Below the pieces are notes generated by a model. It did no database searches. It saw only the letters and a list, made by a program, of their open reading frames with translations, and was not told the DNA's origin. Of a DNA stretch of 64,000 nucleotides, positions 3,733-64,000 are shown piece after piece (the first letter of the stretch is position 1; each line of letters starts with the position of its first letter). A program made the position numbers and the translations under genes. Origin of the DNA: Kroppenstedtia eburnea (GTDB lineage Bacteria > Bacillota > Bacilli > Thermoactinomycetales > DSM-45169). Location of the stretch: NCBI RefSeq assembly GCF_013282215.1, contig NZ_CP048103.1:1860001-1924000 (forward strand), in the 5' to 3' direction.

Positions 3733-4374
3733 ATGAAAAGCACGAAATTCGTTGCAATCACAGCATGTCTGATGATGATACTCTCCGTGTTCGCATGGGG
3801 AAACACCCATGCTGCCCAGGCTGGCAAATACGTGGTGAAATCCGGTGAAACCCTGTCCGGGATTGCTGAAAAATTGGGTATAACCCGCGATGCTCTGGCG
3901 CAAGCAAATCCACAAGTTCAAAACCCGGACCGGATCCAGGTCGGACAAGTGCTGCATACCCCCTCCACTCAACCGAAACAAGAAACACTCACCGCATTTG
4001 AGCAGGAAGTGGTCCGCCTGACCAATGCGGAGCGGCAGAAAAAGGGCTTGAGCCCCCTGCAGGTCGATGCCGGGCTGTCAAAGGTGGCCCGTCTGAAATC
4101 TGAAGACATGCGGGATAAAAACTATTTTTCACACCAATCCCCCACGTATGGATCTCCCTTTGATATGATGCAGAAATTCAACATCCAGTTCAGCCAGGCC
4201 GGAGAAAACATCGCCGCCGGCTACCCCACCCCCGAAAAGGTGGTGCAGGGTTGGATGAACAGCGAGGGACACCGCGCCAACATCCTGAACCCCGATTTCA
4301 CCCACATCGGCGTCGGTGTGGCAAAGGGCGGATCCTACGGCGAATACGAAACGCAAATGTTTATAAAGAAATGA
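3733..4374 (+). CDS. Secreted LysM + CAP/SCP-domain protein (YkwD/SafA-like)
   Basis: 213 residues: signal peptide (1-29, ending THAAQA), one LysM peptidoglycan-binding repeat (YVVKSGETLSGIAEKLG ... IQVGQVLHTP, about 33-78), and a CAP domain (about 90-213) with the typical HRANILNPDFTHIGVGVAKG and AGENIAAGYPTPEKVVQGW stretches. CAP proteins of Bacilli are cell-wall or spore-associated; their activity is poorly known. The ATG at 3733 follows GGAGGGGAAGAT; the frame is open upstream but without another start signal. Confidence 0.92.
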   Translation: MKSTKFVAITACLMMILSVFAWGNTHAAQAGKYVVKSGETLSGIAEKLGITRDALAQANPQVQNPDRIQVGQVLHTPSTQPKQETLTAFEQEVVRLTNAERQKKGLSPLQVDAGLSKVARLKSEDMRDKNYFSHQSPTYGSPFDMMQKFNIQFSQAGENIAAGYPTPEKVVQGWMNSEGHRANILNPDFTHIGVGVAKGGSYGEYETQMFIKK

Positions 4375-4377
4375 TCC

Positions 4378-4415
4378 ACAACCCAACCCGCGCTGTGTGG
4401 CGCGGGTTGGGTTGT
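4378..4415. terminator. Intrinsic terminator of the LysM-CAP gene
   Basis: 15-bp arms ACAACCCAACCCGCG with an 8-nt loop directly after the stop codon; a weak T stretch follows. It lies between convergent genes. Confidence 0.75.
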
Positions 4416-4453
4416 TCCGGGAGAAGGGAGCTGACACCGCTTCCATCCTGACT

Positions 4454-6049
4454 TTACCCCGAGATACGAAGGGGAGGGTTTCCGTCCTGGCCACCTGTCT
4501 CCACAAAAATATAATCCAACAGAGCCTGTTGCAATGTGCCTTTGGTCTCAGCTCTCCGTTCAAAGGAGAGTCCCATATGGATCATCCCTTTCACAACTTC
4601 CGGCCGCATCCCGGTGATCACCGTTTTACAGCCCATCATCGAGATCCCGTCCAGGATCTTCAGCATATGCTGAATCACATCGATTTCCATATGGGCAATT
4701 CCGGAGAGGTCGATGATCAATGTTTGAATATGGGATTTTCCCACTTCCGCCATCACCTGATCTTCGATGGTACACATCCGATAAAGATCCATTTGTCCGA
4801 TCAGGGGCAAAATCGATGTGGAGGGTGTGATCGGAATGATGGGAACGGATAATCTCTCCACCATTTCCCTCTGGGACGCGATCAATTCATCTTTGAACTT
4901 GGAATAATTGATAAAGAAGTGATGCAAAAATTGGTCGAATGATTCGTTTATTTTCTTCTCCAGTTTATAAAATTCCTCCCTCTCATTGAATGACGCACTG
5001 AGACGATCAAAGTTGAACAGAAAATCCCAGACAGTCCTTCGGATCGCTTGAATCCATTCCAGTTTAAATGCCAGCGTCAGGGAATGTTTTGCCCAGGCCA
5101 CACCTTCCCGCTGAGCAAACCGGATCAACTCATGCTCCCGTTCCTCCACGATAAAAACAACCAGCTTATAAGCGTTTTCCAATAAATTGATATTCCCCGT
5201 TTCGTTTATTTCCTCAATCTTGTCCCTCACATTGACCGCTTCGTTTAAAAGCCGTTTCTCAAAAGCTTGTCTGTTTTCCAGAAAGAAGTCTTTAATACCC
5301 AACCCCTCGTTGTAATCCAATGCCAAATGAATCACCCCGCGTTTTTTGTTCACTTTGTTGTTTGGCATGACGATGGTGAAGGTAGTCCCCACATTCTCTT
5401 CGCTCTCCACTTGGATATAACCCCCGTGCTCATGGATCACCGAATAAACCCAGGCCATGCCCATTCCTGTTCCTTCTGTTTTAGTCGAAAAAAACGGGGT
5501 TCCCAGTAAAGAGAGCTGATCTTTCGGGATTCCCACACCGGTATCTTCAATGGAAACCACTACATAATTCTCATTGGAATCATGACGCAGAGTGATCGTT
5601 CCTTCCCCTTCAATCGATTCAAATGCGTTTTTGACCAGATTGAACAGCGCTTTTTTTATATGATTTTTCTGTCCGTAGATCGTGGCGTCTGTATCATTAA
5701 ACACTTTTTTCACATCGATACTGTAAGATTGGTTTTGAAAAAGGGACAGCACATTTTCGAGCTCAACGGATAAGCTTACAGACTGTCTTGTCTCACCTTC
5801 CGGATCCGGTTTGGCCACTTGCAACAAGCTGTCCAAGGTAGCCAATGCATCGTTGAGTTCCGTTTTGGCAATATAGATGTAATCAGGATTTGCCTGTTCC
5901 TCGAGTAATTGCAAAAACCCTTTGACCGCCGTAAGCGGATTCCGAACTTCATGTGCGATTCCCGCGGCGATTTGACCCAAATACGCCAGATGATTCAGGT
6001 GTACTTGATCGGTTTCCTTCACGGTGTGAACTTCTTTGGTGAAGTGCAT
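4454..6049 (-). CDS. Histidine-kinase/STAS fusion protein (soluble HK joined to RsbR-like module)
   Basis: 531 residues in four parts. (1) HisKA helix pair, H-box GIAHEVRNPLTAVKGF with the predicted phospho-His at 33. (2) HATPase domain with N-box NLVKNAFESI (about 137-146), DTGVGIP (169-175) and GTGMGMAW (193-200). (3) About 160 helical residues resembling the N-terminal globin-like part of RsbR co-antagonists. (4) A C-terminal STAS domain (about 410-525; STSILPLIGQMDLYR, TLIIDLSGIAHMEIDVIQHM). There is no transmembrane or PAS sensor. In RsbR the DLSG segment is followed by a phosphorylatable Thr; here Ile (HMEI) seems to occupy that place. No response regulator lies next to it. The start follows AGGAGTGAGACC. 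Confidence 0.88.
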   Translation of the reverse strand: MHFTKEVHTVKETDQVHLNHLAYLGQIAAGIAHEVRNPLTAVKGFLQLLEEQANPDYIYIAKTELNDALATLDSLLQVAKPDPEGETRQSVSLSVELENVLSLFQNQSYSIDVKKVFNDTDATIYGQKNHIKKALFNLVKNAFESIEGEGTITLRHDSNENYVVVSIEDTGVGIPKDQLSLLGTPFFSTKTEGTGMGMAWVYSVIHEHGGYIQVESEENVGTTFTIVMPNNKVNKKRGVIHLALDYNEGLGIKDFFLENRQAFEKRLLNEAVNVRDKIEEINETGNINLLENAYKLVVFIVEEREHELIRFAQREGVAWAKHSLTLAFKLEWIQAIRRTVWDFLFNFDRLSASFNEREEFYKLEKKINESFDQFLHHFFINYSKFKDELIASQREMVERLSVPIIPITPSTSILPLIGQMDLYRMCTIEDQVMAEVGKSHIQTLIIDLSGIAHMEIDVIQHMLKILDGISMMGCKTVITGMRPEVVKGMIHMGLSFERRAETKGTLQQALLDYIFVETGGQDGNPPLRISG

Positions 6050-6367
6050 GGTCTCACTCCTATGAATGATAAGATCTGAAAATCAAAAACAGTAGAAAGA
6101 ATGTTCTGTTTATTGCAGGCGCACAGAGCCAATGTGCAATCTGTTTTTGGAAATAAACTGATAAGGGGTGAAAAACCATATTACAATATTCTTCAACATC
6201 TGCCCCAATACCTTCCGATTGCAGACTGGTTTTATGAAAGGAACAAAATTAACAGACAGGTGAAGCCATACACTCCTGTTCGGTCCCTCCCGGGATCAAG
6301 CAAGAGATTGGCATCTGTACATCAAATGCCAACCCCTTGAAGGATCTGTTTATTTTTTTGATTCCAC
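6050..6367. other. Intergenic region, nothing recognised
   Basis: About 318 bp between the ABC permease and the kinase-STAS gene (both on the minus strand). The left part is AT-rich and may hold the kinase promoter. No gene, repeat or clear hairpin was seen. Confidence 0.4.
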
Positions 6368-7150
6368 TCAGATCGATATATCTCTTTTCACGAAGGAGAG
6401 CCAGGAAATCAGATGAAACAGCAGAAAATAGACTGAAAGAATCCCGATGGAGAAACCCGGAGTCATCCCGGAAAAAGCCGGGATCGCCCCTTCCAGGTAT
6501 TGTGTGAGATCCAGATTGGCAAAGAGGAGGTACTTCCCCAGACTGATCCCGATCATCTTCAAGCCCTCCACCAGCATCATCCCGGCAAAAACCAGGAAGA
6601 TGGAGAGCCCCACCCCCAGGGAGGAGCTGCGGGACAGAGTGGAAAGCATGAACGCCATCGTGGCCACCATCACGATCTCCACCCACCGCAATCCATACAC
6701 CACTCCCGTCTCCCGGAGAAGAACCATCCCCTCCGGGGAGTACACCCGGAACAATACCGCACCGAACAACATCGAACTCAGGAACAACACCGCCATACAG
6801 AGCAAAGAAAAGCATAAGACCACCATATATTTGGAATACAGGACCTTCGTTCGGTTTACCGGACGGATCAGCAACAGCTTCACCGTACCCCATGCAAATT
6901 CGCTGGACACGATCTCCCCTGCGATCACAACCGTCAATAACTGCACGACAAACAGGAGGGAGGAACTGTCCAGAACAAATCCCCCCATATTTTCCTCCCA
7001 ACCGGTGGTGTTTTCCATCCACTTCCGGCCCATGGCAAAGAGAAAGGACAACAGGACCAGGAGCATCAGAAACACCCAGGTGCGGGTCCGATCCAACACT
7101 TTCATCCCCTCGGTTTTCACCAGCCGCAACAGATCAGTCAATCCGATCAC
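6368..7150 (-). CDS. ABC-2 type transporter permease
   Basis: About 260 residues with six hydrophobic segments (first at about 25-40, WVFLMLLVLLSFLFAMG) and the ABC-2 fold feature of an amphipathic SEFAWGTVKLLLIRPVNR loop. It is likely the membrane half of a lantibiotic/bacitracin-type (BcrB-like) exporter, paired with the ATPase upstream. The gene begins inside the end of the ATPase frame, showing translational coupling. The reported start is GTG at 7150; a TTG at 7141, eight bases from GGAGAG, is an equally good choice. Confidence 0.87.
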   Translation of the reverse strand: MIGLTDLLRLVKTEGMKVLDRTRTWVFLMLLVLLSFLFAMGRKWMENTTGWEENMGGFVLDSSSLLFVVQLLTVVIAGEIVSSEFAWGTVKLLLIRPVNRTKVLYSKYMVVLCFSLLCMAVLFLSSMLFGAVLFRVYSPEGMVLLRETGVVYGLRWVEIVMVATMAFMLSTLSRSSSLGVGLSIFLVFAGMMLVEGLKMIGISLGKYLLFANLDLTQYLEGAIPAFSGMTPGFSIGILSVYFLLFHLISWLSFVKRDISI

Positions 7151-58517: not shown

Positions 58518-59309
58518 TTATTCAAGCCATGGTTTGTCATCATCAAATCGAAGCCGGCCGATTCCCGTTGCCTTTCCTGTCACGGGGTCCAAATCGATCA
58601 GGACCGCATTGAATTGAGTTCTGCCCGTGCTCACTTCAAAACGGACCGGTAACTGGGTCAAAAACCTCTTGATGACCAATTCTTTGTCCATCCCCAGTAC
58701 ACTGTCATAGGGACCCACCATTCCCACATCGGTCAAATACGCGGTTCCTTTGGGCAGGATCCGCTCATCGGCGGTTTGAACATGGGTATGGGTCCCCACC
58801 ACCGCAGATACACGTCCATCCAGATACCAGGCGAGAGCCAGCTTCTCTGAGGTCGTTTCTGCATGGAAATCCACCAGCACCGGCGGATTTCCCTTCAATT
58901 TTTTCAGTATGGCATCCGCCTCTCTGAAGGGGCAATCCAGATTGGAGAGGAAGGAACGTCCCATCAGATTGATCACCACCAACTCTCCGCCGTGAAACTT
59001 CAAGCGGGTATACCCCTGTCCCGGAGTTCCTTCCGGGTAGTTGGCCGGGCGAACCATCCGTTCCTCGTCATCGATAAAATCGAAAATCTCCCGCTTGTCC
59101 CATGTGTGATTGCCCAAAGTGATGCAATCGACTCCGGCACCGAAAAATTCCCGGGCGATAGATCGCGTGATCCCCCGCCCGTCAGCGGCGTTCTCCCCAT
59201 TCACAACAATCAGGTCGGGATGATGGGAACGTTTCAGCCGGGGAAGGTATTCCAAGAGGGCTTTTCGGCCCGGCGAACCGACTACATCGCCGATCATCAA
59301 TATTCTCAT
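58518..59309 (-). CDS. ymdB: YmdB, metallophosphoesterase (2',3'-cyclic nucleotide phosphodiesterase)
   Basis: 263 residues. Di-metal motifs MIGDVVGSPGRKALL, VVNGENAADGRG, GNHTWDKREIFD, VDFHAETTSEKLA and GTHTHVQTADERIL. In Bacillus YmdB affects biofilm/motility choice and works near RNase Y. Directly after rny on the same strand. Start ATG 59309; GAGGAG is 11 nt upstream. Confidence 0.96.
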   Translation of the reverse strand: MRILMIGDVVGSPGRKALLEYLPRLKRSHHPDLIVVNGENAADGRGITRSIAREFFGAGVDCITLGNHTWDKREIFDFIDDEERMVRPANYPEGTPGQGYTRLKFHGGELVVINLMGRSFLSNLDCPFREADAILKKLKGNPPVLVDFHAETTSEKLALAWYLDGRVSAVVGTHTHVQTADERILPKGTAYLTDVGMVGPYDSVLGMDKELVIKRFLTQLPVRFEVSTGRTQFNAVLIDLDPVTGKATGIGRLRFDDDKPWLE

Positions 59310-59332
59310 GGTTTAACCAGCTCCTCATCAGG

Positions 59333-59366
59333 GAAAAAAATAAAGCGGCGTAATGCCGCTTTATTT
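59333..59366 (-). terminator. Terminator overlapping the rny stop codon
   Basis: AAATAAAGCGGC / GCCGCTTTATTT hairpin followed by T-rich sequence on the minus strand; the TAA stop of rny lies within the arm. Confidence 0.85.
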
Positions 59367-60890
59367 AGCGTATTCGACAGCCCGTGTCTCGCGGATCACC
59401 GTAACTTTGATATGCCCCGGATAGTCCAGCTTATTCTCAATCTCTTTTTTAATCTCCCGGGCCAGCCGGGTGGACTCCCCATCATTGATCTCATCCGGAC
59501 GAACCATGATCCGGACTTCACGGCCGGCTTGGATGGCATAAGATTTTTCAACCCCGTCGAAGGATTCACAGATCTCCTCCAACTTCTCCAACCGCTTGAT
59601 ATACGCCTCCAGGGTCTCACGTCGCGCGCCCGGCCGTGCCGCCGACAAGGCATCCGCCGCACCGACCAGAACCGCGATCACACTGGTGGCCTCCACATCG
59701 CCGTGATGGGATGCAATTCCGTTGATGACAGCCGGGTGCTCATTATATTTTTTACCCAGTTCAATCCCGATCTCCACATGAGAACCTTCCACTTCATGGT
59801 CAATCGCTTTCCCGATATCATGCAGGAGACCGGCCCGTTTCGCCAGGTGGACATCCTCACCCAGCTCGGCCGCCAGCAGACCTGCCAAATGCGCCACTTC
59901 CATCGAGTGTTGCAACACGTTTTGTCCATAGCTCGTCCGGAATTTCAACCGGCCCAGAATTTTGATCAGATCAGGATGGAGACCGTGAACACCAGTCTCA
60001 AAGGTGGCCTGTTCTCCATACTCCCGGATCCGCTCATCCACTTCTTTGCGGGACTTTTCCACCATCTCCTCGATCCGGGCCGGATGAATCCTGCCATCGG
60101 CCACAAGCTTTTCCAGTGCCACACGGGCCACTTCTCTTCGAATCGGATCAAATCCGGAAAGAATCACGGCCTCCGGTGTGTCATCGATAATCAGATCGAT
60201 TCCGGTCAATGTTTCCAATGCACGGATGTTGCGACCTTCACGTCCGATGATTCTCCCCTTCATCTCATCGTTGGGGAGAGTCACCACGGATACAGTCGTC
60301 TCTGCCACATGATCCGCAGCACACCGCTGGATGGCCAGAGAGAGAATGCTCCGGGCCCGCTTGTCGGCTTCTTCCTGAGCCTGTTGCTCCATCTCCTTGA
60401 TCATTTGCGTGGTCTCATGCTTCATCTCATTTTCCACTTTGGACAGAATCAGTTGCTTCGCTTCATCCGTGGACAATCCGGACAAGCGTTCCAATTCCGC
60501 CACCTGGTCCCGGTAAAGCCTGTCGATCTTCTCTTCCCGGTCCCGGATGGCATCTTCCCTTTCGCTGAGAGTTTCCTCCCGCTTTTCCTGGCTTTCCTGT
60601 TTCCTGTCCAAGGTCTCTTCCTTCTGCATCAGACGACGTTCCAGCCTGGCCAGGTCGTTGCGCTGTTCGCGAATTTCCCGTTCCGCTTCCGTGCGCAGAC
60701 GGTGTACCTCATCTTTGGCTTCCAGAATATTTTCCCGCTTCAACGCTTCCGCATCGCTTCTCGCTTTATCGATGATCTGTTCCGCCTCTTTTTCGGCACT
60801 GCCGATCCGGGCTTCCGCTGTCAATCTCCGCATCCGGTACCCGATGGCCGTACCCAGACCGATTACGAGGAGGAACAGGAGTAACCACAC
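59361..60890 (-). CDS. rny: Ribonuclease Y
   Basis: 509 residues from GTG 60890, 516 from an in-frame ATC at 60911. N-terminal membrane helix ([19 protein letters not shown]), long coiled coil (about 25-200), KH domain with [17 protein letters not shown], and HD domain [20 protein letters not shown]. Main mRNA-decay endonuclease of Bacilli; RicA in this window is its regulator. AGGAGG at 60921-60926 is 9 nt before ATC 60911, but 30 nt from GTG, so ATC could be the true start. The frame further upstream is leader. Confidence 0.94.
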
Positions 60891-60911
60891 GAGAAAATCA
60901 GTCGCCTCGAT

Positions 60912-61220
60912 CGCTACCCACCTCCTCCCTTCCCCAAGTATAAAACAAGACCGATCCGCTTCGGTCTGTTGCATCACATGCTTACACGAGACTCCACAGG
61001 CAGCCCGTGTTTGTTTGGCAAGAGACGGGATGTCCGTATCCGCATCTCTCTTCCGGATCAGGTCAAAGCCGGGGTGTGCACCATTCCACATCTGAAAGCA
61101 CGGGAATTCCCGCTCCTATGATAAAGCTCCCGCCCGGTATCAAGTGGGCACTTACACATCCCTGAGTAAGCATCTTCCAAGCCAATTTAAGGATTTTTAG
61201 ATGCACTCCAATTGTATTAT
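60912..61220. other. rny leader and promoter region
   Basis: Contains the Shine-Dalgarno at 60921-60926, a TATACT (60937-60942) on the minus strand, and a GACCGA/TCGGTC palindrome at 60950-60967. No -35 is clear and no gene is present. Confidence 0.4.
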
Positions 61221-61898
61221 TTACCCGGCCCCATTGTCAAGAAGACCGGGGGTTTGAACCAGAGTTTCCCCGCCTCTCATCCGGACCTGAAAGACTCGAT
61301 CAGCCCCTTCCGTCAGATGGGAATTGTGACTGACCAGAATCACCTGTCGACCAAACATCTCCGCGGTGGCTTTGAGAAATTCCAGCATGGGAATCACATA
61401 CTCCGCACTGACATGCTTTCCCGGCTCGTCCAGGATCAAAGGGCCTTCCGGTCGGGGTCGGAAGGTTTCCACCATCGCCACCCTCAGTGCCAGAGAGATG
61501 ATATCCACCACTCCCCCTCCACGGGCATCCTGGGGCTTGGTCTTCACCGGGGTCCCTTCCCAGTCGGTGATCACATAAAACTCAGCCGCCGATTTGCCAC
61601 CGTGCTCCGAGAGCTCGATTTCAAAGCGAAACTGTGGCCCGAAAACATACTGGAGGGCATTGGTGACCAATGTCTCCATCTGCTCCTTCGCCTGCAGACG
61701 GGCATGTTCCGCCGAGCCCTGCAGGAGAACTCTCACCTTCTCAAAAAGGTCCCGCTCTTTTTCCGCCTCCCGCCGCCGTTTTTCCGTATCATCCAGGAGC
61801 TCCTGCAACCCGTTTCTCTCCGTCTCCCTGATCAGTGCTTCCTTCTTGGCTGAAGCCAAGGCCCGGCTTAGGGCATCCAGTTCACTTTCTCGATCCAT
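61221..61898 (-). CDS. Rad50/SbcC-like half-ATPase, signature and Walker-B subunit
   Basis: 225 residues: N-terminal coiled coil (1-80, LSRALASAKKEALIRETERN ... RRREAEKERDLF), then the C-terminal lobe of an SMC/Rad50 head: signature-like RGGGVVDIISLALRVA (127-141), Walker B PLILDEP (153-159), H-loop VSHNSH (189-194). It has no Walker A, so it must pair with the Walker-A protein at 62096-63586. Starts within the end of the 87-residue coil gene (17-nt overlap; AAGGG just upstream). Last of the overlapping run. Confidence 0.85.
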   Translation of the reverse strand: MDRESELDALSRALASAKKEALIRETERNGLQELLDDTEKRRREAEKERDLFEKVRVLLQGSAEHARLQAKEQMETLVTNALQYVFGPQFRFEIELSEHGGKSAAEFYVITDWEGTPVKTKPQDARGGGVVDIISLALRVAMVETFRPRPEGPLILDEPGKHVSAEYVIPMLEFLKATAEMFGRQVILVSHNSHLTEGADRVFQVRMRGGETLVQTPGLLDNGAG

Positions 61899-62145
61899 GG
61901 CCCTTATTCAGCTCCTCCGGCAGCAGCTTCCATGCCTCCCGAATCCGGCTTTCAATCTCCTCTTCCAGCCTTTTGATCTCCTCTTCCAGCCGGTCGGGTT
62001 CCACTCCCAGCTCCTCCAGCTCTTTGAGCAGCTTTTTTTCCTCCTGCTCCAGACTCTCCAACCTCGCTTCAGCTCTGTAGCGCTGATCCTTGGCTTCATT
62101 CAATGCCTGTTTGAGTTGTTTGATCCTCTCTTCCTGCTGCTGCAC
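61882..62145 (-). CDS. Small coiled-coil protein of the split Rad50-like module
   Basis: 87 residues, almost wholly coiled coil (RIKQLKQALNEAKDQRYRAE ... LGVEPDRLEEEIKRLEEEIE), ending KLLPEELNKGHGSRK. Start GTG 62145 has AGGAGG exactly 8 nt upstream (62154-62159), inside the end of the zinc-hook gene (50-nt overlap in another frame). It overlaps the next gene by 17 nt. The good signal shows it is a separate gene, not a frameshifted part. It could supply a returning arm or link the two half-ATPases. Confidence 0.75.
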   Translation of the reverse strand: MQQQEERIKQLKQALNEAKDQRYRAEARLESLEQEEKKLLKELEELGVEPDRLEEEIKRLEEEIESRIREAWKLLPEELNKGHGSRK

Positions 62146-63586
62146 CGGCCATTCCTCCTCCGTATTCTTCCATGATATGTTCCAGGACGGAATCATCGAT
62201 CGGGGAACTGCAAGTGGGGCACCGGCCCAGTTCACGGAGAAGGGCGGCCAGCTGATTGGTGCATCTCGCGATTTCATCCCCGTTGTCCGCCATAAACCGG
62301 CGACCCCGGGACAGACGTTCCCGGCAGTCCCTCCATCCCTGTTCCAGCTTGAGGAGACGTCCCCGTTTCTCCACCAGATCACTCAACTTTTCCACTTGTT
62401 CTTCCGGCAGATGGACCAGCTGCCGGAGCCGGTTTTGCAGCCGTTCCTTTTCCCGTCCCAATGCCCGAACCTTCGGAAACAGCCCCGCCAGAACCTGATA
62501 ACGCCTGCCCAGGCGCTCCAGTTGATCCGGATCCATCTGATCGATGCCGGCGGTTGCCGAACAAATCCTCCGCTGCCGGGCGGCTTCCCTTTGCACCCGT
62601 TTCAGATTTTCCCGGAGCGGGGTGAGCAGCCTGAGCCGCTCCTGTACCTTTATCAGTTGGGACAGGTGCTCCTCCACTTCCATCGTCCGTCCGGTTTCGA
62701 CCCAGATTCTTTTCCAGCCCTCCCGTTCCGTCCGGATCCTCGAACAGGCCGAGGAGAGCCGCTTCATGTGACTCTGTTTAAAAAGGGTCCCTTCCGCTTC
62801 CGTCAGGATCCGGCTTGCTTCATCGATACCGGACAACCGCCCCAGCCGGTCCCGGATCTCCTCTTTCTCCCGGTTCATCAGATCCAGGCGTTCCTTCAGA
62901 CGACGAATGGTTTCCAAGCGCTCATGCATGGCCCCCGCTTCCTTATACCGGGCTTCAGCCTGTTCCAACCGTTCCTGGAGATTTGGCAAATCTTCATAGG
63001 GCTCCAGGCGCTTCTTCAGGTCCTCCGATTGCTCCGCCACATGTTTCAGTCTGGAGTTGACCCCGCTCAAATCCCGGGCTGTCCCCTGCAAAGCGATGTC
63101 GATGATGTGTGCTCCGCTGGCCCTGCCGATGGACTTCGCCTTCACGCTACCTGTTTCCGCCAGCAGGAACGGCGGCTCCAGTTGAGTGCCGAACTGGGCG
63201 GGCAGTTTCCAGTCGGAATCCAGCTTCAATGCATGCATTCCATGGGCATCCAGCACTTCCTGCGGGACGGAAGATCCAAACCCTTCATACACTTGTTCCT
63301 CCTGCTCCGAAGTCTTCAGTATGTACCGGTTGACGGAAGAGGAGCGCATCCGGGTGATCTCCGTTCCGTCGGACAGAGTCAGGCTGACCCGGCACCGCTT
63401 TTTTCCCGCCCGGATGAAGTCGGTTCCTTTGGGTTCATTGTAGAGAACCCATCGGAGTGCCCGCAAAATCGCGCTTTTGCCGCTGTCCGACGGACCGACG
63501 AACACGTTGAGCCCTTCGGTGAAGAACACCTCTGTCTGTTCATGGGACTGGAAGTTTTCAATCAGCAACCGTTCAAAACGTTTCAA
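62096..63586 (-). CDS. Rad50/SbcC-like half-ATPase, Walker-A and zinc-hook subunit
   Basis: 496 residues: head lobe with LNVFVGPSDSGKSAILRALR (Walker A at 31-38) and a loop QLEPPFLLAETGS (about 135-147) like that of phage SbcC-type ATPases, a coiled coil (about 165-450), and a CPTC zinc-hook (456-459, RCPTCSSPIDDSVLEHIMEE) 37 residues from the C-terminus. No Walker B or signature. TTG start at 63586 overlaps the phosphoesterase stop (ATTGA), with GGAGG 8 nt upstream. Complements the protein at 61221-61898. Confidence 0.87.
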   Translation of the reverse strand: MKRFERLLIENFQSHEQTEVFFTEGLNVFVGPSDSGKSAILRALRWVLYNEPKGTDFIRAGKKRCRVSLTLSDGTEITRMRSSSVNRYILKTSEQEEQVYEGFGSSVPQEVLDAHGMHALKLDSDWKLPAQFGTQLEPPFLLAETGSVKAKSIGRASGAHIIDIALQGTARDLSGVNSRLKHVAEQSEDLKKRLEPYEDLPNLQERLEQAEARYKEAGAMHERLETIRRLKERLDLMNREKEEIRDRLGRLSGIDEASRILTEAEGTLFKQSHMKRLSSACSRIRTEREGWKRIWVETGRTMEVEEHLSQLIKVQERLRLLTPLRENLKRVQREAARQRRICSATAGIDQMDPDQLERLGRRYQVLAGLFPKVRALGREKERLQNRLRQLVHLPEEQVEKLSDLVEKRGRLLKLEQGWRDCRERLSRGRRFMADNGDEIARCTNQLAALLRELGRCPTCSSPIDDSVLEHIMEEYGGGMAGAAAGREDQTTQTGIE

Positions 63587-64000
63587 TCCTCGTCCCTCCC
63601 GGTTCCCAAGTGTTCCTGCACCACCGCAATCCGTCGCAGTGCTTCATGGCGGACCTCATCCTCCACATTCTTCGATCCGGCGATCTCCTCCACAATTCCC
63701 TGCACATGGAGACTGCGAAAATCATGATCCCGGATCTCCCGTTCAAAGGCGGCGATCCTCTCTTCCCGGTAAGCCGCCTGTTCCACCCAGGTCCGGTCCA
63801 GAACCGCTTCCCCCGGCGCGGCGCATTTCAGGGGAAGCAGTTTGACGGTGATTTCACTTCCGAAATCGAGCACTGCCACCTGAGGGTGACGGCTGATCTC
63901 CGAGGGGTGGTTGTTGATTCGGGCCAAGGCTCCCGGATTGATGATATACCGGCCTTCCTTTTGCTTGACGGGAAAACCGGCGTGGTAATGTCCTGTCAGC
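63583..64000 (-). CDS. Mre11/SbcD-like metallophosphoesterase, C-terminal part (runs off right edge)
   Basis: The frame is open to the window edge (GHYHAGFPVKQKEGR, IINPGALARINN), so about 138 residues are visible. GHYHAG is the last metal-binding motif of calcineurin-type nucleases, and INPGAL...R follows it in the SbcD/YfcE-like branch. A helical tail (YREERIAAFEREIRDHDFRS) could contact the ATPase. Translationally coupled to the Walker-A subunit: stop TGA and start TTG overlap. The N-terminal catalytic motifs are outside the window. Confidence 0.85.
   Translation of the reverse strand, partial: LTGHYHAGFPVKQKEGRYIINPGALARINNHPSEISRHPQVAVLDFGSEITVKLLPLKCAAPGEAVLDRTWVEQAAYREERIAAFEREIRDHDFRSLHVQGIVEEIAGSKNVEDEVRHEALRRIAVVQEHLGTGRDED

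Follow-up and report, generated by a model that had tools for sequence, protein, structure and literature searches.

A chromosomal Mre11–Rad50-like locus of Bacillota in which the Rad50 counterpart is divided among three genes

The usual picture of Rad50 and SMC (structural maintenance of chromosomes) proteins is of one continuous chain whose ends have to be brought back together, and archaeal and eukaryotic Rad50 is one polypeptide with its hook placed between two covalently joined arms. A 64,000-nucleotide stretch of a Thermoactinomycetaceae genome, that of Kroppenstedtia eburnea (NZ_CP048103.1, a single contig of 3.565 Mb, positions 1,860,001–1,924,000; hereafter the window), raises the question of whether such a protein can also be made in pieces: at its right edge four overlapping genes on the minus strand, here called M, A, B and C and located between recA–recX and rny, encode a putative Mre11-type nuclease and what look like consecutive parts of a Rad50. 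We consider it quite probable that these genes specify a chromosomal, SbcCD-like Mre11–Rad50 complex whose Rad50 is naturally cut beside the zinc hook, and that this complex is a stand-in for SbcCD.

The four genes and the parts they encode

An earlier note, made from the sequence of the window, had read here four overlapping minus-strand genes with Shine–Dalgarno sequences of their own, and all four open reading frames (ORFs) were found where it had placed them. M (63583–64000; all features named are on the minus strand) is the C-terminal part of a Mre11/SbcD-type nuclease whose gene, as noted earlier, is cut by the window's edge; in sequence fetched past that edge, which also contains recX and recA, the full ORF has 329 amino acids (aa) (L002:8583–9572; L, G and f denote our loci, genomes and families). 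It is followed by A (62096–63586, 496 aa, TTG start), which comprises a Rad50 N-lobe, an ascending coil and a CxxC hook near the C-terminus, by the coil protein B (61882–62145, 87 aa, GTG start), and by C (61221–61898, 225 aa, ATG start), a short coil with a Rad50 C-lobe. Stop codons included, the overlaps are 4 nt (M/A), 50 nt (A/B) and 17 nt (B/C), and Shine–Dalgarno-like stretches precede A (GGGAGG within M, 63595–63600), B (GGAGGAGG within A, 62154–62161) and C (GGAGGAG within B, 61912–61918).

The nuclease assignment of M rests on profiles, motifs and a predicted fold. M matches Pfam Metallophos (E-value 2.5e-16), Mre11 is its best match in a PDB profile search (9e-6), residues D9, H11, D52, N84, H85, H160, H195 and H197 are invariant in 24 aligned rows, and all five phosphodiesterase motif patterns occur in 71 of 74 M proteins, a count that left out a partial protein (L095) and one with DAH for DTH (L149). 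An AlphaFold2 model of M from Kroppenstedtia guangzhouensis, the nearest named relative among the matches (its C is 93% identical to that of the window), has a predicted local distance difference test score (pLDDT) of 90.0 and a predicted template modelling score (pTM) of 0.80. In a fold search with it, ranks 1–39 are all Mre11 or SbcD (best Z score 25.5, root mean square deviation (rmsd) 2.7, 239 aligned), other phosphatases appearing only from Z 18.5 down; helices 290–299 and 305–321 come after the nuclease core, where helices binding the base of the Rad50 coil would be expected.

A and C, by sequence, match the N- and C-terminal halves of Rad50, respectively. The best PDB profile matches of A are Rad50 N halves (3qkr_A, 1.4e-11; 1ii8_A, 2e-11), alongside Pfam AAA_23 (3.7e-15), and those of C are the corresponding C halves (3qkr_B, 3.1e-7; 1ii8_B, 5.5e-7). 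The motifs are divided in the same way, with Walker A and Walker B on distinct ORFs as the earlier note had said. Specifically, A carries the Walker A motif GPSDSGKS (residues 31–38, 63473–63496), in which G31 and S33–S38 are invariant in 27 rows and P32 nearly so, the equally invariant Q135 of GTQLEPPFLL (63182–63184), which we take to be the Q-loop, and the zinc-hook CPTC (residues 456–459, 62210–62221), with C456, P457 and C459 invariant and only 37 residues following. In the same number of rows, C carries ARGGGVVD (residues 125–132, 61503–61526; R126, G127–G129, V131 and D132 invariant), a Walker B plus D-loop stretch LILDEPGKH (residues 154–162, 61413–61439; L156–H162 invariant) and VSHN (residues 189–192, 61323–61334; V189 and H191 invariant); the first and last of these we presume to be the signature and the H-loop. 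B, which is 78–92 aa long across 76 loci and 46–89% identical over 26 relatives, contains an ELGVEP stretch; Pfam and NCBIfam yield weak matches alone for it, mostly to coil proteins. Three phage families in PHROGs match the proteins over nearly their full length: phrog_16465 matches A (8e-72, residues 6–464), phrog_15167 matches C (1e-60, residues 6–215) and phrog_18563 matches B (1.5e-5, residues 6–76). These families are labelled exonuclease, ATPase and unknown, respectively, and the listing never links them as one Rad50.

Do the lobes of A and C belong to one head? In family f56, all three genomes that matched C carry a single ORF of 686–702 aa that unites M with the heads of A and C (L151:4758–6818 in G404; L152 in G084 and L153 in G340, both on the minus strand). 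The fusion has lost coil and hook (L151 was also examined with Pfam), and in the tree described below it lies inside the clade of split systems, beside Desulfovirgula (support 99/92). In this minimal Mre11–Rad50 head protein the very parts that we propose to come together are fused naturally; its neighbours in L151 and L153 are presumably AddB and AddA. We also folded A, B and C of Thermoflavimicrobium dichotomicum (L088), which share one frame, as a single chain with stops read as Q, using an alignment (A5) of 39 rows in which the last 6–14 residues of many A rows are misplaced at the very end. The resulting model (pLDDT 75.8, pTM 0.48, the coil of middling confidence) predicts one Rad50/SMC-type head: Foldseek ranked Rad50 first, and VIA-align brought both head parts into one alignment with the Rad50 chains 5dac_B (Z 18.6, rmsd 6.0, 361 aligned of 432) and 3av0_B (Z 17.9, rmsd 6.4, 335 of 365). 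Helices flank the hook on both sides in this model, with arms of unequal length. Two-chain Rad50 heads are known from crystals, because entries for the Pyrococcus furiosus ATPase domain (1f2t, 1ii8, 3qkr) list the N half and C half as separate chains. Those halves are presumably constructs made by co-expression, whereas the present ones are encoded as such in the genome and come together with a coil, a hook and B.

Integrity of the gene breaks

The most mundane explanation of a divided Rad50 would be that the breaks are sequencing errors, frameshifts or the marks of a decayed pseudogene. A was found in 39 of the 41 genomes of the order Thermoactinomycetales, and loci were read for 30 of these 39; all 30 (29 relatives and the window's own) have the three as distinct ORFs, as do two further loci of the order (L164, L165). 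The same cuts recur throughout Bacillota: among named loci (80 kept of the 156 found) the three are separate ORFs in 76, with median lengths of 479, 83 and 221 aa, and in those 76 M always adjoins A, with recA upstream in 74 and rny downstream in 73. The earlier note had allowed that relatives might carry one continuous gene; none with a continuous coil-bearing Rad50 gene was seen among the loci examined, the only fused form being the f56 protein, without coil or hook and inside the split clade.

The four remaining named loci have no A or B near C. Three of them are clostridial, and there a full A (484–512 codons, E-value 1e-122 or better) is found with M and B on a different contig, so that M-A-B loci L263, L264 and L265 pair with C loci L144, L143 and L147. 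In each case M-A-B precedes rimO-like and pgsA-like genes, and C stands behind a folD-like gene; the gene after C is rny in L143 and L144, and the short contig of L147 shows no rny. These are draft or metagenome assemblies and a wrong bin is possible for one of them, yet three agree. In the genome of the fourth exception (G440, 1.6 Mb) the search for A gave only short P-loop matches. A and C are on different contigs in G196.

Each frame is also under selection. Relative to K. guangzhouensis, the ratio of non-synonymous to synonymous substitution rates (dN/dS) is 0.24 for A, 0.14 for B and 0.11 for C, and the B region beyond its first 60 nt has a ratio of 0.15 in its own frame vs 1.7 and 1.2 in the other two. 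The start of B is conserved in position and, in most relatives, preceded by a GGAGG-like run, whereas A ends at varying places. Draft errors do occur, as A is in two pieces in four of the 76 named loci (L087, L096, L119, L149), probably through such errors, and a canonical SbcC (that of G372, see below) lies in two overlapping frames. However, the recurrence of the same cuts in 30 of 30 loci of the order and beyond it, purifying selection on A, B and C, frame relations that differ from species to species, and halves that are far apart in phages and on separate contigs in three clostridial assemblies in effect refute this explanation, whose probability we put at practically nil. The breaks are real, because the same cuts are found across relatives, each frame is selected and the halves are unlinked in some genomes.

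One long Rad50 might still be produced by programmed frameshifting or by read-through of stops, and in four loci (L081, L088, L128, L150) A, B and C do lie in one frame with only stop codons between them. However, no frame relation is conserved, A and B sharing a frame in 19 of 76 loci and B with C in 11; most copies of both B and C are preceded by a ribosome-binding-like site (a loose Shine–Dalgarno pattern precedes B in 72 and C in 65 of the 76); and A and C are unlinked in phages and in the clostridial assemblies. This makes a recoded single chain barely credible. Frameshift, pseudogene and read-through were thus all rejected on the strength of unlinked halves, selection and shifting frame relations.

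Two minor observations concern individual loci. In Caloramator australicus (L149:4147–5627) the hook part of A is an ORF of its own of 59 aa, which reflects a draft error or else an additional cut. G148, G335 and G110 each contain the split system a second time (at L162, L161 and L163, respectively), the copy of L162 with gaps of approximately 0.8–1 kb between B, C and M.

Distribution in relation to SbcC and phages

The split system and canonical SbcC were compared across 398 evenly drawn Bacillota genomes. With SbcC called by TIGR00618 at E-values up to 1e-20 (up to 1e-10 within the order), C occurs in 65 and SbcC in 166, and both are found in two genomes vs 27 expected (Fisher one-sided p = 1.5e-14, kinship ignored). 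Apart from the genome of the window, all 64 tested genomes with C also have A, which in three cases is part of the f56 fusion. Families f26 and f28 each contain some genomes with C and others with SbcC, and none with both. Within the order, SbcC is found in one of 41 genomes (G015), which is one of the two that lack A; the window's own genome has no TIGR00618 match at 1e-10, and neither it nor its congener has a match to PF13558 (SbcC Walker B) at 1e-3. The two genomes in which C and SbcC coincide, G137 and G426, have the gene order A-B-C-M and their rows group with phage rows, that of G426 being identical to a row from a viral contig, and their split systems therefore look like mobile copies. 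Split C and canonical SbcC thus almost exclude each other in Bacillota, and on bacterial chromosomes the split system seems to replace the usual SbcC version.

Canonical SbcC in the 398-genome search is one chain, mostly of about 820–1330 codons. Of five shorter frames that were examined, three are truncated by the end of a contig, another is an extra partial copy next to a full one, and that of G372 is apparently frameshifted, with overlapping frames at L269:2884–4419 and 4206–6617 and a CxxC in the second, which is more likely a frameshift than a split.

The earlier note had suspected a phage link, and phages do carry the system. A survey of 75 loci from phages and other viral sequences (some contigs are represented twice) found A in 72, C in 61 and both in 59, with no A–C fusion among the 59; one locus (L040) had neither A nor C above threshold. 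Narrow patterns applied to IMG/VR gave 59 loci with A and eight with C. In 55 of 56 distinct phage or viral A ORFs the last CxxC starts 6–26 residues from the end, the exception being L170. The two halves may be widely separated: in the 133-kb record of Microbacterium phage Magritte, A is found at 93.8 kb and C near the start, at 0.3 kb, and in Tunturi_5, a circular record of 309 kb, A is at 127–128 kb and C at 19 kb, some 107 kb apart and on opposite strands. In ten loci on eight contigs (L166, L167, L168, L170, L177, L179, L182, L183) M is fused to A as a protein of 712–809 aa, with C separate. B may be general among viral loci, as suggested by a best-ranked ORF of 75–123 aa directly before C in 46 of 56, a raw count; many of these small ORFs have little or no score with the B profile. 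In phage vB_BboS-125, A, an AP2-domain gene (L033:6392–6964, perhaps a homing-type insert), B and C are consecutive. Plasmids are represented by 11 records carrying C, one of which has the order A-B-C-x-M; a part of the system is annotated as ‘ParA’ on one plasmid.

A midpoint-rooted tree of 70 rows of joined head halves (canonical row L243, whose reading frame is cut off, was left out) separates, with support 100/99, 57 split or derived rows from 13 canonical ones (12 SbcC and T4 gp46). Phage rows occupy several deep branches, with chromosomal rows among them. Phage T4 resembles the present case in carrying, by annotation, a Rad50–Mre11 pair (gp46/gp47); in contrast, its gp46 is one 560-aa product that does not belong to the split clade and groups, by a branch marked as long, with canonical SbcC. 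We favour a phage origin of the chromosomal system, and we give about an even chance to the specific scenario, compatible with a split SbcCD-like complex, that chromosomes took up a phage recombination nuclease, which has since come to replace SbcCD. It would account for phage families with the same three-part cut, for the 59 viral contigs with A and for the nesting of chromosomal among phage rows; on the other side, the root is a midpoint root, several phage branches are long and unsure, and phages may instead have acquired the system from Bacillota.

Proposed assembly, function and surroundings

In the SbcCD family, ATP closes the heads on DNA, hydrolysis licenses nuclease cutting and the hooks tether. 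By analogy, the mechanism here most likely follows SbcCD. A would supply the hook and, below it, the ascending coil and the lobe with Walker A, B would be a small coil protein of the descending arm, and C would supply the last coil and the signature/Walker-B lobe, so that A and C unite non-covalently into one ABC (ATP-binding cassette) ATPase head and each rod is held together by chain contacts alone. Two such A–C heads would clamp DNA upon ATP binding; an M dimer docked at the coil base would cut when hydrolysis lets it; and the hooks would pair via zinc at the tip and tether. The chromosomal complex would then take over the task of SbcCD and trim DNA ends that are blocked or form hairpins, alongside RecA-dependent repair. 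Like SbcCD (SbcC TIGR00618, SbcD TIGR00619), the system places a Mre11-type nuclease beside an ATPase with ABC head, coil and hook, and the same work at DNA ends is expected of it; unlike SbcC, which is a single chain, it has three proteins, of about 800 aa in total, and RGGG for LSGG. Since it neither forms one continuous chain nor matches the SbcC models searched, we do not file it as SbcC and regard it as a split variant that would work like Rad50/SbcC. Its closest solved relatives are archaeal and eukaryotic Mre11–Rad50, by sequence for A, C and M and by fold for M.

Several points weigh against this interpretation. In the read-through model SMC heads equal Rad50 in score (6qj1, Z 18.6), and the model, of modest pTM, is a single chain with stops read as Q, so that the association of free chains is outside its reach; the joint head that the earlier note looked for does appear in the model, with the halves there being one chain. 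Pfam Rad50_zn_hook scores only E 0.039 on A, below the cut-off, and the A of phage Magritte has no CxxC. The signature core of C is RGGG, vs LSGG(E) in canonical SbcC rows, and three of the 74 M proteins miss one motif pattern. Because the Fisher test ignores kinship, counts by family are also relevant: 27 families have C, 68 have SbcC and four have both. Neither C nor SbcC occurs in 169 of the 398 genomes, which means that some forms escape these searches or that SbcCD function is dispensed with in some cases. Finally, G010, the other genome of the order without A, has no TIGR00618 match, only a 1403-aa PF13558 protein. On the other side, profile searches, models, synteny and the natural head fusion all support the earlier note's view that four genes encode a Mre11–Rad50-like complex.

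The genes might alternatively encode an anti-phage defence ATPase–nuclease like Lamassu or Gabija. Among the best 25 of 57 families matched by A are the LmuB (9.1e-14) and GajA profiles, the match of C to LmuB is weak (1e-4), and Lamassu chains are among the fold-search matches. However, the best LmuB and GajA matches of A span little past the P-loop lobe: on the 611-position LmuB profile, A covers positions 5–105 and C positions 428–585. LmuB is, moreover, one full-length SMC-like chain with effector genes, whereas the neighbours here are recA, recX, rny and ymdB, a core recA–rny synteny; and the presence of A in 39 of 41 genomes of the order, the complementarity to SbcC and the carriage of the split system by phages too make a defence role very unlikely. 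Of the two roles that the earlier note had offered, repair is favoured over defence, because the recA/rny neighbourhood is conserved and SbcC is nearly always missing where the system is present.

The lengths of the coils remain puzzling in the window. The earlier note's count of unequal arms was about right: by our own count approximately 295 residues lead up to the hook and approximately 190 lead down (the A tail, B and the start of C). We place the excess in the arm of A, because many phage and viral A ORFs are shorter yet hook-ended, 34 of the 56 distinct ones having only 320–422 aa (stop-to-stop) with the hook still at the end; a fold-back in this arm, which is a guess, would even out the lengths. 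The split itself may merely ease assembly or dosage control, or let the arm open. A stronger proposal, which we judge unlikely, is that the hook-side cut is functional, such that the three-chain rod, phage-derived and having displaced SbcCD, opens between A and B/C near the tip with B as a tip-side subunit; if true, such an openable Rad50 would allow DNA entry and exit or tether release without undoing the head or the zinc hook.

Should the split SbcCD-like complex be confirmed, a natural two-gene head with a hook-ended arm would mean that the covalent loop is dispensable, and it would offer ready-made separable parts for studying communication between clamp, coil and hook. It would also identify the missing SbcCD in bacteria whose genes read ‘AAA family ATPase’, ‘hypothetical protein’ or ‘ParA’. 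Much of Bacillota and many phages retain this design. We found no description of a Rad50 or SbcC cut into separate genes in the literature searched, mostly open-access and including the portions available of PMC3175470, PMC5105663, PMC7824862 and PMC6375668. Mre11–Rad50 fusion proteins in Mimivirus and some bacteria, as described in the first of these (PMC3175470), likewise rearrange the gene architecture of the complex, and there two genes are joined, the opposite of one being cut.

The genes that flank the locus, named from their sequence and in agreement with synteny, are recX and recA upstream, just outside the window, and rny and ymdB downstream, the position next to rny being as first noted. 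Rfam gave no match at 59000–64000 of the window. Control of the locus by the SOS regulator LexA is unsupported: one-mismatch LexA boxes in L002 are at chance level (8 found vs 9.2 expected), and of 74 loci, two have an exact box near the recA start and none has one in the interval from recA to M. Promoter-like sites of the TTGACA-18-TACAAT type number three in the stretch vs 2.0 expected; one of this sequence (11/12), at 61240–61211 on the minus strand at the end of C, is a possible rny promoter.

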